Source of the DNA: Tepidiformaceae bacterium
Lineage (GTDB): Bacteria > Chloroflexota > Dehalococcoidia > Tepidiformales > Tepidiformaceae
DNA: 64,000 nucleotides
Direction of reading: 5' to 3'
NCBI GenBank assembly: GCA_958295975.1
Contig: OY282446.1
Span: 1,279,289 to 1,343,288 of the forward strand
Part shown: piece after piece, positions 2,910 to 50,431 of the stretch
Numbering within the stretch: position 1 is the first letter of the stretch
How the letters are laid out: every line of letters starts with the position of its first letter
Position numbers and translations under genes: made by a program
Notes under the pieces: model-generated
Told to the model about the DNA's origin: nothing
The model's input: only the letters and a program-made list of their open reading frames with translations
Databases searched by the model: none

Positions 2910-3482
2910 CTAGCTCGCCAGAACGATCGCCGTGACGATCCCCAGGGCGGCGAGGCCGAGTGCGAGTCCGCCGGCGATCATTCCGCCCACGCGGACCATC
3001 AGGCGCTGTTCCCGCTCGCCCATCTCCGAGCGGATGGCCTGGAACTCGGCCCGCATGGCCGCGAACCCGGCCTGCGTGCGCTCGTCGATGGCCTGCATTT
3101 CGGAGCGGACGGCGCGGAATTCGGCCTGCGTGCGCTCGTCGATGGCGTGCAGCTCGGCGCGGATGGCCGCGAACCCGACCTGCGTGCGCTCGTCGGATGC
3201 CTGCATCTCGGAGCGGACGGCGCGGAATTCGGTCTGCGTGCGCTCGTCGAGGGCGTGCAGCTCGGCGCGGATGGTTGCGAACCCGACCTGCGTGCGCTCG
3301 TCGGATGCCTGCATCTCGGAGCGGACGGCGCGGAATTCGGCTTCGATGTCGGCCTTCGTCGCCAGATTCTCCCCGACGCCCTCCGCGAGCGTGGAGACGA
3401 GGACGCCAGCCTGCTTCTCGCTGAAGCCCGCCTCGTCCTGCAGCCGTTTGGCCGCCTTGAGCGTGTCGAACGCCACCGGCAT
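2910..3482 (-). CDS. Coiled-coil protein with C-terminal membrane anchor (DUF1640-like)
   Basis: A 190-residue protein. The N-terminus (FDTLKAAKRLQDEAGFSEKQAGVLVSTLAE, then ATKADIEAEF) resembles DUF1640/CCDC90-type proteins. Residues 50-139 are five 18-residue repeats of the type F-R-A-V-R-S-E-M-Q-A-x-D-E-R-T-Q, a predicted long coiled coil, and the protein ends in a single hydrophobic segment (GGMIAGGLALGLAALGIVTAIVL). It is probably tethered to the inner membrane; role unknown. ATG 3482 follows TAGGAT by six bases, a leaderless-type start. Confidence 0.75.
   Translation of the reverse strand: MPVAFDTLKAAKRLQDEAGFSEKQAGVLVSTLAEGVGENLATKADIEAEFRAVRSEMQASDERTQVGFATIRAELHALDERTQTEFRAVRSEMQASDERTQVGFAAIRAELHAIDERTQAEFRAVRSEMQAIDERTQAGFAAMRAEFQAIRSEMGEREQRLMVRVGGMIAGGLALGLAALGIVTAIVLAS
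3066..3335 (-). repeat. Five tandem 54-bp coding repeats
   Basis: Within the DUF1640-like gene the DNA repeats in 54-bp units (18 codons), with a stronger 108-bp period because alternate units are most alike. The units encode the F-x-x-(I/V)-R-(A/S)-E-(M/L) coiled-coil repeat. High nucleotide identity between units suggests recent expansion by slippage or unequal crossover. Confidence 0.7.
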
Positions 3483-27412: not shown

Positions 27413-28818
27413 CGCGCAATCTCGACATGCGCGGACGCGACCACCTGGTCGATCAACGGCCCGTACTTCGCGGCGCGAGTATCGTTGGCGTAACAGCCCT
27501 CTCGCCCTCCACAGCGGATGGGATATCCATACTCATCGATGGCCTCTCCGTGAATTCTCTTGACAGGGTAGCCACGCCCACACTCCACGCCCGTCTCCAG
27601 ATCGAGACAGAACCAGAATCTGTTATCGTTCTCTCCTGTACCTGCCCCATTAAATATTATCCCCAGCCTCGTTGGACACGCTTCGGGAGTATCGCACAGA
27701 CTCCCGCCTCCCCCTATGCTGCGCGTCTCGATACGCAACCCGGAAGGCACCGTGAAAACGAAACCCTTGTCCTCTCCGATCATCTCGGCGAGGGAGACCT
27801 TGTAAGTGCCCGGCAAAATCGGCTCGTAAAAACCAATTCCGTCGTTCCCATCCCCGATTGTGGCAGCAATACACGTCGTCAGCCCCAAGACGGTGAGGTC
27901 GTGCGTCGTCGCCACCCACAGCGGCCCGGGGATGCAGCCCGTGAACGCATTGCCGCTGGACAGGGCAAGGTCGGTGAGTGCCGTGAGCGCCCCCGCCTGC
28001 GTAGGGATGGCCCCCGTCAGCGTGTTGTCCGACAGGTCCAGCGCCGTCAGCGCCGTCAGGTTCCCCAGCTGGGTTGGGATGGCCCCGCTCAGCGAGTTGT
28101 CCGACAGGTCCAGCGCCGTCAGCTTCGTCAGCGCCCCCAGCTGCGTGGGGATGGCCCCCGTCAGCGTGTTGTCGCCCAGGTCCAGCCGCGTCAGCTTCGT
28201 CAGCGCCCCCAGCTGCGTCGGGATGGCCCCCGTCAGCTCGCTCCCGCCCAGGTCCAGCGTCTCCAGCGCCGTCAGGTTCCCCAGCTGCGTCGGGATCACG
28301 CCGCGCAGGGTCCACTGCCGCGTGTAGTGCTCCGCATCCAGGAAGCGCTGCTGGCGCGCGCTGTACACCTTCGTGCTCTCCCGCGTGTCGCTGAAGTCCA
28401 GCCCCGTCACGCGCAGGGGCGTGCCCCCGAGCGTCACCGCATGCCAGTACCCGAGCGTGCTGCCCGCCGACCAGTTCAGCGGTGAGGCGCGGTCCCACCA
28501 GCTCGGCGTGTCGTAGTCGATCCAGCCGGAGACGCGCAGCGTGGACATGATCGCCAGCAGCGTGTCGCAGTCCGCCGCCAGCCCCGGGTTGGACGCGCGT
28601 GAGACGCCCAGCGTGCGGGCCGTGCACGTCGGCGGGTTCGCCGGCAGCGCGGTGGCGGGCGTTTCGGTCGTGGCCGTGGTGGTGGTCGTCTGCGCCGTCG
28701 CGCCGGGCGTGTCCCCGCGCTGCGTCACGCCGAGCGCCACGGCCAGCGCCAGCACCGCGGCCAACGCCGCCGCCAGCGCCCCCAGGCGCGCGCGCTTCCC
28801 CCGCATCGGTCCGGCCAT
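27409..28818 (-). CDS. Secreted leucine-rich-repeat protein with variable C-terminal domain
   Basis: About 469 residues. After MRGKRARLGALAAALAAVLALAVALG (signal or anchor) comes a Thr-rich linker and a Cys-capped N-terminal domain (DCDTLLAIMSTL, LNWSAGSTLGYWHAVTLGG). Five or six LRRs of the plant-like type follow (IPTQLGNLTALTALDLSDNTLTGA). The C-terminal third (GTYKVSLAEMI, GFVFTVPSGLRIE, to LIDQVVASAHVEI) is AT-richer and related to the ends of the LRR proteins at 37-39.7 kb. GGAGG decides ATG 28818. Translationally coupled to the metallopeptidase, so the LRR may bind the same surface target; inference only. Confidence 0.8.
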   Translation of the reverse strand: MAGPMRGKRARLGALAAALAAVLALAVALGVTQRGDTPGATAQTTTTTATTETPATALPANPPTCTARTLGVSRASNPGLAADCDTLLAIMSTLRVSGWIDYDTPSWWDRASPLNWSAGSTLGYWHAVTLGGTPLRVTGLDFSDTRESTKVYSARQQRFLDAEHYTRQWTLRGVIPTQLGNLTALETLDLGGSELTGAIPTQLGALTKLTRLDLGDNTLTGAIPTQLGALTKLTALDLSDNSLSGAIPTQLGNLTALTALDLSDNTLTGAIPTQAGALTALTDLALSSGNAFTGCIPGPLWVATTHDLTVLGLTTCIAATIGDGNDGIGFYEPILPGTYKVSLAEMIGEDKGFVFTVPSGLRIETRSIGGGGSLCDTPEACPTRLGIIFNGAGTGENDNRFWFCLDLETGVECGRGYPVKRIHGEAIDEYGYPIRCGGREGCYANDTRAAKYGPLIDQVVASAHVEIAR

Positions 28819-44519: not shown

Positions 44520-44525
44520 TCCCGC

Positions 44526-44720
44526 GTGATCGCCGCGTCTTCGCTCCGGCGGCTGGGCGCCGCCCACTGGCCCTTCCTCGCCGTCTGCGCCGTCTTCCTG
44601 CTCGTCGGCGCGCTCGTGGTCGACGAATACGGCACCTCGGTGGACGGGCTGGAGCAGCGCAATATCGGGAACGCGGTGCTCGATTATGTTGAGGGGGGGG
44701 GGGGGGGGGAGCGCCTTTGA
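44526..44720 (+). pseudogene. N-terminal fragment of a membrane glycosyltransferase, cut off after poly-G
   Basis: 64 residues from GTG 44526: one membrane segment (HWPFLAVCAVFLLVGALVV), DEYGTSVDGLEQRNIGNAVLDYVE, then five glycines from the G run and a stop. DEYGTSVDGLEQR is the acidic first outer loop expected in GT-C enzymes. The continuation is in the +1 frame from 44692 on. Loss of one G, or gain of two, would fuse this fragment to the 714-residue frame that follows. Off-state of a switch or an assembly error are both possible. Confidence 0.75.
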
Positions 44721-46830
44721 TCGGTTGAGCTATGACCACGACCGCTACTACGGCGCGGCCTTCGAGGCGCCGCTGGCGCTCGTCGAGCGCATCCTCGGGC
44801 TGGAGGACAGCCGGGACGTCTGGCTCAGCAGGCACATGCTTACGCACCTGTTCTTTCTCGTCGGCGGAGTCTTCTGTTACCTCTTGGTCTATCGGACATT
44901 CAACAGCAGAGTCCTTGCGCTCGCGGGGATGGTGCTGTTCGTACTGCACCCGCGCCTCTACGCGAACTCGTTCTTCAACTCGAAGGACCTGCCGTTCGCG
45001 GCCATGTTCATGATCGCGCTCTACCTCACCCACCGGGCCTTCCGGCGGGACGCACTGGGGGCCTTTCTGCTCTGCGGCGCGGGTATCGGCATTCTCGTCA
45101 ACCTCCGCATCATGGGGATCATCCTCTTCGCCGCCGTGCTGGCGTTGCGGGGGCTGGACGTGGCGTTCGCACGCAGCCGGGAGGAGCGCGGGCGCGCCCT
45201 GCTGACGGGGGGAGCGTTCGCGCTGACCGCCGTGCTCACGTACTACGCCTCCTTGCCCGTGCTCTGGCCCGACCCCGGGCGCTTCGTGGAGCTGGTCGAG
45301 ACGCTCGGTGCTCATCCAAACGCGTGGTTGAACCTCTTCCGGGGGGAACGGCTGCCATCCGTGGCCGGGCCTCCGTTCGAGTACGTCCCCGTGTGGGTGG
45401 GGATCACGACGCCGCCCGCCACGCTCCTGCTGGCCGCGCTGGGGGCCGTGGCGCTGGCGTGGCGCGGGCTGCGCCGCCCCCGCGACGTGCTCCGCAACGG
45501 CCCGTCGCGGTTCGGCCTGCTGCTGATCGCCCTGCCCGTGGTCACGGTCGTGGCCGTCGTCGTTCTCGGGAACAACGTCTACGCAGGCTGGCGGCAGCTG
45601 TACTTTCTGTACGCGCCCCTGCTCCTGCTCGCGGTCGCGGGGCTTCACCAGCTGGTGGCGGGCGCGCGCGGTCGGTGGCTGCGCGCGGGAACCTGGACGC
45701 TGGCGGGCGCGGCCGTCGCCGTGACGGTCGTCTCCATGGTGAGGATACATCCGTACCAGGACAACTACTTCACCGTCCTCGTGGATCGGACCACCCCGGA
45801 GCGGCTGAACTCCCGCTACGCGATGAAGTACTGGGACCAGTCCGCCAGGAGCGTTCTGGGCGCCATCGCCGGGGACCATTCAGGGACGCTGTTTGTTGCG
45901 TACCGGGCGGTGTACAGCCGCTGGCTGCTCCACGCGGATGACCGCGCACGGATCACCTACACGCGCGACTTCCGTTCCGGGGAGCGCAACTTCTACGAGC
46001 TTCGCGACGGCCAACCCTGCCCCACTCCCCTCCCGGACGGCGCCTACGTCAGCCGCATCTACGCCACCACGCTCGATTGCTTCGTCGATCCGGTGGCGTA
46101 TTTCGGCGGCTTCCGGCGGGCGGCGCTGGCCATCGAACCGCTGGTCCGCTCCACCTACCGCATCCATCGCGACGGGAGCGAACTGACGTACCTCCGGGAC
46201 GGCTGCCCGGCGGAGGACATCGAAAGGCGCTTCTTCCTGCACGTCTGGCCCGTCGACGCCAGCGACCTGCCCCCCGGCCGCGCGGAGCACGGCTTCGACA
46301 ACCGGAATTTCTCCCTCGATGCCCGCATTGACGGGAACTGCATCGCCACCGCGCGCCTGCCGGACTACCCCATCGCCAGCATCCACACGGGCCAGTTCTC
46401 CGATGCTGGCGCCGACTGGGAAGCGGAGTTCACGTCCGACTGGCGGATCATCACCCCCTCGACGACCGACCTCGCGCGCGCCCGGCGCGAGGCGCTGGCG
46501 GGCGAGCCGCTGGTCCGCTCCGTCTTCAGCGTCTACCGCGACGGACGCGCGCTCACGTACCTGCGGGAGGGGTGCTCCGCGGATGACGCCATCGCGCGCT
46601 TCTTCCTCCACGTCGAGCCGGTCGATGCCGACGACCTGCCCGTGCCTCGACGGGTGCATGGCTTCGAGAACCTCGACTTCACCCTGGGGTGGAGCGGGGC
46701 GCGCGTCGATGGGGACTGCATCGCCGTCGCGCGCCTGCCGGACTACCCCATCGCCAGCATCCGCACGGGTCAGTACGACGGGACGGGTCAGCTCTGGGCG
46801 GTGGAGTTCGCCATCCCCGACGGGGAGTGA
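44686..46830 (+). CDS. Membrane glycosyltransferase body with two C-terminal repeat domains (frameshifted from its start)
   Basis: The main 714-residue frame of a GT-C/GT39-like protein whose true start is in another frame at 44526. About eight membrane segments run from LTHLFFLVGGVFCYLLVYRTF through NSFFNSKDLPFAAMFMIALYL to VAVTVVSMVR. Extracytoplasmic residues follow, then two copies (about 46117-46450 and 46486-46827) of the domain with YLR(D/E)GC, FFLHV-x-PVDA-x-DLP, HGF(D/E)N, DG(N/D)CIA and LPDYPIASI(H/R)TGQ. The same domain ends the glycosyltransferase at 8.3 kb. Reading from the internal ATG 44686 would skip the catalytic first loop. Confidence 0.8.
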   Translation: MLRGGGGGSAFDRLSYDHDRYYGAAFEAPLALVERILGLEDSRDVWLSRHMLTHLFFLVGGVFCYLLVYRTFNSRVLALAGMVLFVLHPRLYANSFFNSKDLPFAAMFMIALYLTHRAFRRDALGAFLLCGAGIGILVNLRIMGIILFAAVLALRGLDVAFARSREERGRALLTGGAFALTAVLTYYASLPVLWPDPGRFVELVETLGAHPNAWLNLFRGERLPSVAGPPFEYVPVWVGITTPPATLLLAALGAVALAWRGLRRPRDVLRNGPSRFGLLLIALPVVTVVAVVVLGNNVYAGWRQLYFLYAPLLLLAVAGLHQLVAGARGRWLRAGTWTLAGAAVAVTVVSMVRIHPYQDNYFTVLVDRTTPERLNSRYAMKYWDQSARSVLGAIAGDHSGTLFVAYRAVYSRWLLHADDRARITYTRDFRSGERNFYELRDGQPCPTPLPDGAYVSRIYATTLDCFVDPVAYFGGFRRAALAIEPLVRSTYRIHRDGSELTYLRDGCPAEDIERRFFLHVWPVDASDLPPGRAEHGFDNRNFSLDARIDGNCIATARLPDYPIASIHTGQFSDAGADWEAEFTSDWRIITPSTTDLARARREALAGEPLVRSVFSVYRDGRALTYLREGCSADDAIARFFLHVEPVDADDLPVPRRVHGFENLDFTLGWSGARVDGDCIAVARLPDYPIASIRTGQYDGTGQLWAVEFAIPDGE
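44693..44709 (+). repeat. Homopolymer of 17 G
   Basis: Seventeen consecutive G inside a coding region, at the junction between two frames of one glycosyltransferase. Tracts of this length slip readily during replication and are the classic basis of on/off phase variation. Confidence 0.9.
46117..46827 (+). repeat. Two tandem copies of the ~110-residue glycosyltransferase C-terminal domain
   Basis: Copies at about 46117-46450 and 46486-46827, related to the pair at 8351-9040. Conserved core: LVRS at the start, FFLH, DLP, HGF, DG-x-C-(I/V)-A and LPDY-x-IAS. Confidence 0.7.
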
Positions 46831-50068: not shown

Positions 50069-50431
50069 ATGGAGAATGCGATGACGACGGAAGCGAACGC
50101 TCCGACCACGCCCGACACGCCTGCGACGCTCGGCGACCTCAACATGATGGCGGAGGCCATCATGACGGAGCTTGGCGGCGTCGAGGCTCGGCTTACCGAA
50201 CGGATCAACGGCGTCGAGGCTCGGCTCACCGAACGGATCGACGGCGTCGAGGCTCGGCTCACCGAACGGATCGGCGGCGTCGAGGCTCGGCTCACCGAAC
50301 GGATCAACGGCGTCGAGACCCGGCTCACCGAACGGATCGACGGCGTCGAGTCTCGGCTGGACAACGTCGAGCAGCGGCTTGGCGGAATCGAGCAGTCGCT
50401 CGCCGAGATCAAGGACGCGCTGGCGCGGTAG
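50069..50431 (+). CDS. Coiled-coil protein with 11-residue repeats
   Basis: 120 residues. A short polar N-terminus (TTEANAPTTPDTPATLGDLNMMAEAI) is followed by six tandem hendecads of the type GVEARLTERIN and a diverged end (LDNVEQRLGGIEQSLAEIKDALA). Such 11-residue periods form right-handed coiled coils, as in tetrabrachion- or tail-fibre-like stalks. Function unknown. TATACT lies upstream near 50028. ATG 50081 is an alternative start. Confidence 0.7.
   Translation: MENAMTTEANAPTTPDTPATLGDLNMMAEAIMTELGGVEARLTERINGVEARLTERIDGVEARLTERIGGVEARLTERINGVETRLTERIDGVESRLDNVEQRLGGIEQSLAEIKDALAR
50177..50374 (+). repeat. Six tandem 33-bp coding repeats
   Basis: 33-bp units at 50177, 50210, 50243, 50276, 50309 and 50342, the first five almost identical, encode the GVEARLTERI hendecad. 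The number of units could vary by slippage. Confidence 0.8.

Follow-up and report, generated by a model that had tools for sequence, protein, structure and literature searches.

A candidate poly-G phase-variation switch in a membrane glycosyltransferase gene of an uncultured Chloroflexota bacterium

Random on/off variation of the cell surface is so far known mostly from animal pathogens. In Campylobacter, tracts are most often of 9-10 G and seldom reach 13-15 (PMC6321876). A second behavior is described for Propionibacterium acnes, where the lengths of G/C runs follow clade, suggesting slow change and not switching (PMC4746626). Here we describe a 17-G tract that splits a membrane glycosyltransferase gene in an uncultured bacterium (family Tepidiformaceae, phylum Chloroflexota), and we lean toward the reading that it is a slippage-driven contingency locus of the Neisseria/Campylobacter kind. 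The window, that is the whole stretch of 64,000 bases that was analyzed, covers positions 1279289-1343288 of a single contig of 2,401,284 bases and has a GC content of 71%. Our searches of an open-license library listed no work that deals with phase variation, either in Chloroflexota or among sponge symbionts.

A glycosyltransferase gene split by a 17-G tract

The locus comprises the following features, in window coordinates:

44526..44692, + strand: 5' part of the GT-C glycosyltransferase gene, with GTG start, first helix and first acidic extracytoplasmic loop (VVDEYGTSVDG...VLDYVE); from the list of open reading frames, the coding score and ten in-frame paralogues
44693..44709, + strand: 17-G homopolymer, candidate slippage switch, giving glycine codons in every frame; from the sequence, run-length statistics and 18 G at the matching site of a paralogue at 785 kb
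44686..46830, + strand: rest of the GT-C glycosyltransferase (PMT_2), from ATG 44686, with the enzyme body from 44713; from the open reading frame, PF13231 and dN/dS
46135..46432 (limits approximate), + strand: C-terminal repeated domain, copy 1 (EPLVRS...GFDN...LPDYPIASIxTGQ); translation read directly
46504..46827 (limits approximate), + strand: C-terminal repeated domain, copy 2; translation read directly

The frame opened by GTG 44526 encodes a membrane helix and an acidic loop as far as VLDYVE, runs into the 17 G and ends at a stop at 44720 after 64 aa. The remaining enzyme lies in another frame, open through 46830, and the 706 codons 3' of the tract carry no further break. That the tract splits one gene, as a preliminary description of this DNA had claimed, is confirmed by the coding signal, which switches frame at the tract: with a codon-usage score trained on window genes and family genes, the upstream frame is positive in all three 60-nt blocks from 44520 to 44700 and the downstream frame in all five blocks 3' of 44700. 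The frame logic proposed there also holds. One third of tract lengths give a single protein of about 767 aa, from which the assembled length is one unit off, and by frame arithmetic all other lengths run into an early stop 3' of the tract, which leaves a 63-68 aa stub. Two hallmarks of slipped-strand phase variation occur together here, a long coding repeat beyond chance and a repeat length that sets the frame of an otherwise intact gene. The gene stands alone between genes for an LLM-type monooxygenase and a YCII protein, outside any glycan cluster, which we count against a switch.

A switch would work as follows. Replication slippage would add G's to the tract or remove them. At one third of lengths the tract would be read as a short loop of glycines that links the first acidic extracytoplasmic loop to the second membrane helix, and the full GT-C glycosyltransferase of about 767 aa would be made; at the two other lengths translation would stop just after the tract, leaving only the stub. 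In such a population, some cells would have one of the roughly 12 paralogous surface-glycan enzymes and others would lack it. From the letters of one assembled genome we infer slippage in vivo, on/off switching and the rate at which it would run.

The enzyme could instead be made at any DNA length, if RNA polymerase or ribosome slippage yielded some full-length product, or in shortened form by a restart at ATG 44686. At the assembled length this ATG, just 5' of the tract, does share the frame of the downstream part. However, a ribosome-binding motif is not evident before it on direct reading, and its product would go without the first helix and the acidic loop. Transcript slippage, for its part, is best known on A/T runs, and we hold either version to be very improbable.

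The assignment to the membrane GT-C glycosyltransferases made in the preliminary description is borne out by the downstream part, which matches PF13231 (PMT_2) at 29.5 bits, above the curated cut-off of 26.1. In the first extracytoplasmic acidic loop, which would be the site of the catalytic Asp, homologues carry DDYGVSxDE and the window gene VDEYGTSVD. A structure model of the homologue from a Pseudomonadales genome is weak (mean pLDDT 54.3, from 4 sequences), so it is taken only as support for the class; its best matches include chains of ArnT, oligosaccharyltransferase (OST/PglB), AftA, Emb and ALG9, all of them GT-C enzymes. A profile of four homologues matched zero chains among the PDB sequences, and NCBIfam gave no name to any of the three glycosyltransferase proteins tried. 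The likeness to PMT_2/ArnT-type enzymes consists of the Pfam match and the weak homologue model. The difference lies at the C-terminus, where the window family carries a fused domain of some 110 residues in one to several copies (window 46135-46827; L046:4001-6949), which has no name in Pfam or NCBIfam and of which extra copies, matched across residues 559-705, are found elsewhere in the genome. The enzyme would presumably take its sugar from a polyprenyl-phosphate carrier and pass it to a surface glycan or protein.

Long G/C tracts in the same genome

All other G runs in the window, and all its C runs, are at most 7 long. Three minisatellites also lie in the window, at 50176-50358 (unit of 33 bases), 3033-3341 (54/108) and 27980-28296 (72); each unit length is divisible by three. 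Another minisatellite, coding RIAGSPD repeats in two frames, adjoins a 9-G run (L092:1974-2329). Across the 2.40-Mb genome there are 18 G/C runs of at least 9. Eight runs reach at least 12, with lengths of 13, 13, 13, 14, 15, 17, 17 and 18; a first-order Markov model predicts 2.1 genome-wide and extrapolation from shorter runs 0.01-0.43. For runs of at least 17, three are observed against at most 0.006 expected genome-wide under the Markov model. The long G/C tracts are not due to chance. The eight tracts of at least 12 are, in genome coordinates except for the first:

Tract 1, 44693-44709 of the window, + strand: 17 G in the window gene; read from the sequence
Tract 2, 785691-785708: 18 G in a glycosyltransferase paralogue, at the codon that matches tract 1, out of frame too
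Tracts 3-5, 250535, 303260 and 2087661: C runs of 13, 14 and 17, each at codon 4 of a large secreted protein
Tract 6, 87800: 15 C directly before a bacterial sugar transferase
Tract 7, 1960935: 13 C within an unnamed gene, out of frame as assembled
Tract 8, 2360491: 13 G at the 3' end of an unnamed gene

Five of the eight fall at two homologous sites, the glycine loop of the glycosyltransferases and codon 4 of the secreted proteins, and six lie at or near the 5' end of a surface or glycan gene, in three families.

The secreted paralogues are Ig/fibronectin-like, with He_PIG domains in the three tract-bearing copies and fn3 in two. Among the four copies with an N-terminus, three carry a tract of 13-17 C at codon 4, before the signal peptide, and keep 826-843 open codons 3' of it; counted from the upstream start, only the 13-C copy is in frame, the 14-C and 17-C copies being out of frame. 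Reading these tracts as coding depends on where the start codon is placed. All four copies share GGAG, a spacer of 5-6 nt, GTG or ATG, and then AAG. The fourth copy (L100, G000:C1:1921151), at 1921 kb, is tract-less and has no ATG at the post-tract place used by the others, and its start is therefore most likely the upstream GTG. On this ground the alternative that the poly-C tracts lie upstream of the start codon was rejected, as the 1921-kb copy puts the start 5' of the tract; since that copy also loses its own frame after about 110 residues, the upstream start is not firm. If these tracts slip as proposed for the window gene, they would switch secreted Ig/fn3-like surface proteins likewise.

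The sugar transferase beside the 15-C tract matches PF02397 at E=8e-55. The assembled tract length is out of frame from both candidate ATGs; later starts, 3' of the tract, are possible, which makes a switch less certain here. The tract lies between the end of a GT2-like gene and the sugar transferase (L009:2260-3015). Two of the other genomes treated below also have long C runs, 18 C in G393 (L139) and 17 C in G394 (L178), at the end of a similar GT2-like gene. Conservation of the sugar-transferase tract in these two was considered and rejected, since in both the tract closes the GT2-like gene and is followed by a different gene.

The length of 17 G is an assembly consensus call, and it is in long homopolymers that a long-read consensus is most prone to err. 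The tract could then be real with its length wrong by one, the gene being normally in frame with a constant oligo-glycine loop, and both glycosyltransferase tracts are off by the same one unit, as such an error would have it. An error of length nevertheless leaves the excess of long tracts and the sites at which they lie unexplained, and the secreted genes include both in-frame and off lengths; we consider this account distinctly improbable.

Comparison of the 12 glycosyltransferase copies that span the tract site, window gene included, places the tract within its family. At this site ten copies have a short or interrupted run of glycine codons, with pure G runs of at most 7, and read through; in the copy at 779-781 kb, for example, runs of 7, 6 and 4 G are split by single A's and the gene stays in frame. 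A pure long tract occurs only in the window gene (17 G) and the 785-kb copy (18 G). Across homologues and paralogues the oligo-glycine loop tolerates differing lengths.

These paralogues bear on a further explanation, that the window gene is a decaying member of a redundant family which lost its frame as a glycine-codon run expanded, leaving the tract as a neutral scar and no switch. Near residue 392 of the 785-kb copy, away from any tract, lies a second frameshift that makes this copy a probable pseudogene, so that tracts may also grow in dying copies; the decay that the preliminary description had set against a switch is thus seen in part, in this paralogue. The tract-less secreted copy is frame-broken too, and the ten other glycosyltransferase copies could cover the function. 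Against decay, the window gene stays open for all of its codons past the tract, and its pairwise dN/dS (Nei-Gojobori, mosaic gene conversion being possible, and with the 785-kb copy entering only by the part before its second frameshift) is 0.38-0.54 against ten paralogues, like that of three in-frame pairs (0.46-0.63). The three tract-bearing secreted genes likewise keep their long open frames, and tracts recur across unrelated surface genes. We regard decay as unlikely, though the least so of the explanations that dispense with a switch.

The family and its tracts in other genomes

The glycosyltransferase family is absent from the 8 genus relatives at E <= 1e-3 and present in 4 of 393 genomes of a class sample, the source genome included (E <= 1e-20). 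Its named relatives are encoded on MAG chromosomes of Dehalococcoidia (OY282458, 45% identity), Pseudomonadales (OY282455, 44%) and Longimicrobiales (OY282361, 40%). OY282458 appears to belong to the class of the source genome, as class samples built around the two have contig places in common, among them C4:27823 and C24:75845. Tracts of at least 11 number 13 in G280, 12 in G309, 13 in G377, 6 in G393, 42 in G394 and 12 in G395, all genomes bearing the family, against 2, 0, 0 and 0 in G020, G034, G198 and G048, four hand-chosen one-contig genomes of the same class; the same-genus genome G004 has 6. On direct reading, many of the tracts of at least 11 in these genomes look intergenic. Poly-G as a mark of family-bearing genomes alone was rejected as a rule, because tracts of at least 12 occur in 148 of the 393 class genomes, the source genome included, some of them at contig ends and probably artifacts, and the family in only four. 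In the relatives G002 and G003 the contig-end tracts read G outward and look like a two-color sequencing artifact; they were left out of use for this reason, and genomes of this kind are best omitted when tracts are counted. The view in the preliminary description that such a switch would be unusual in this type of organism therefore stands only by half: our searches turned up no report in print, yet tracts of at least 12 do occur in other genomes of the class sample.

Members of the same family carry long in-frame tracts at other loops, 16 G in G280 and 29 C in G394, and in G395 the starts of three neighboring genes, whose translations read like GT-C enzymes, bear 11, 26 and 20 G. G394 also holds three tandem copies (L174:1502-3028) with 739 bases between tracts and poly-G of 17, 13 and 19. 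Copies two and three show 0 differences in the 400 nt before and the 340 nt after the tract, and copy one shows 0 in the 340 nt after it. Such copies, as assembled, support tract instability; consensus error could explain part of the length spread, hardly six bases of it.

A shared leader of about 60-75 bases, ending in ...CTGACGGCGCGCTGTCAGAACATGGGTAC or close variants, stands directly before tracts of G11-G14 at loci L116, L169 (two tracts), L132, L154, L133 and L158 of three genomes (G377, G393 and G309), where it precedes glycosyltransferase-like and secreted-protein-like genes; it could be a mobile promoter or a leader with a built-in tract. At L129, L176, L177 and L222 of G394, the Pseudomonadales record, poly-C of 14-25 lies near the start of small ORFs. 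By reading, three of these encode products that have a KPWSKP-like motif in common and resemble peptide precursors; NCBIfam gave zero matches for the small ORFs L129, L176 and L222.

Dehalococcoidia have been obtained from HiFi reads in a sponge metagenome (PMC12586988), which suggests sponge hosts for MAGs such as these. An accession search turned up no link to that study, and a sponge habitat of the source genome is a possibility only. A wider picture, which we put forward tentatively and hold to be more doubtful than the switch itself, is that several phyla, probably living together in animal hosts (sponges), share laterally moving GT-C enzymes, secreted proteins and tract-bearing leaders that were independently armed with poly-G/C tracts. 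Chloroflexota would thereby gain their first known phase-variable surface system, one that spans a symbiont community.

A candidate phasome and its described counterparts

The case for a contingency locus made in the preliminary description has gained from the seven further tracts of at least 12, most of them 5' in surface or glycan genes, and from the paralogue with a second tract at the matching codon; at the level of one gene it stays a candidate, and for the genome as a whole a candidate phasome is credible. General hypermutability through loss of MutS was rejected, with MutS1 over the cut-off in 12 of the 12 genomes tried; since MutS1 is present in the source genome, a general loss of mismatch repair does not explain instability. 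The benefit of switching would plausibly be variation toward a host, phage or neighbors.

Should the tracts switch, random on/off variation in the sugars and proteins of the surface would extend to uncultured Chloroflexota and to other environmental or symbiotic genomes. It would also explain why these genes are annotated as broken, and existing long reads could then serve to test host recognition and phage escape in such communities.

Two described systems frame this reading. The genome of P. acnes (Cutibacterium) resembles the present one in being GC-rich and in having G/C tracts that break gene frames, surface-protein genes among them; tract length follows clade there (PMC4746626), whereas here we have the assembled lengths of one genome. 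From the intragenic poly-G/C phase variation of Campylobacter, Neisseria and Helicobacter the locus differs in its longer tract (17 G against a mode of 9-10 G), in its GC-rich Chloroflexota host and in that the switch is a candidate; as Campylobacter tracts are mostly of 9-10 G, one of 17 G may be less tuned than a classical switch. It shares with these systems a G/C homopolymer in the 5' part of a gene for a surface glycan or surface protein, of whose possible lengths one third are in frame.
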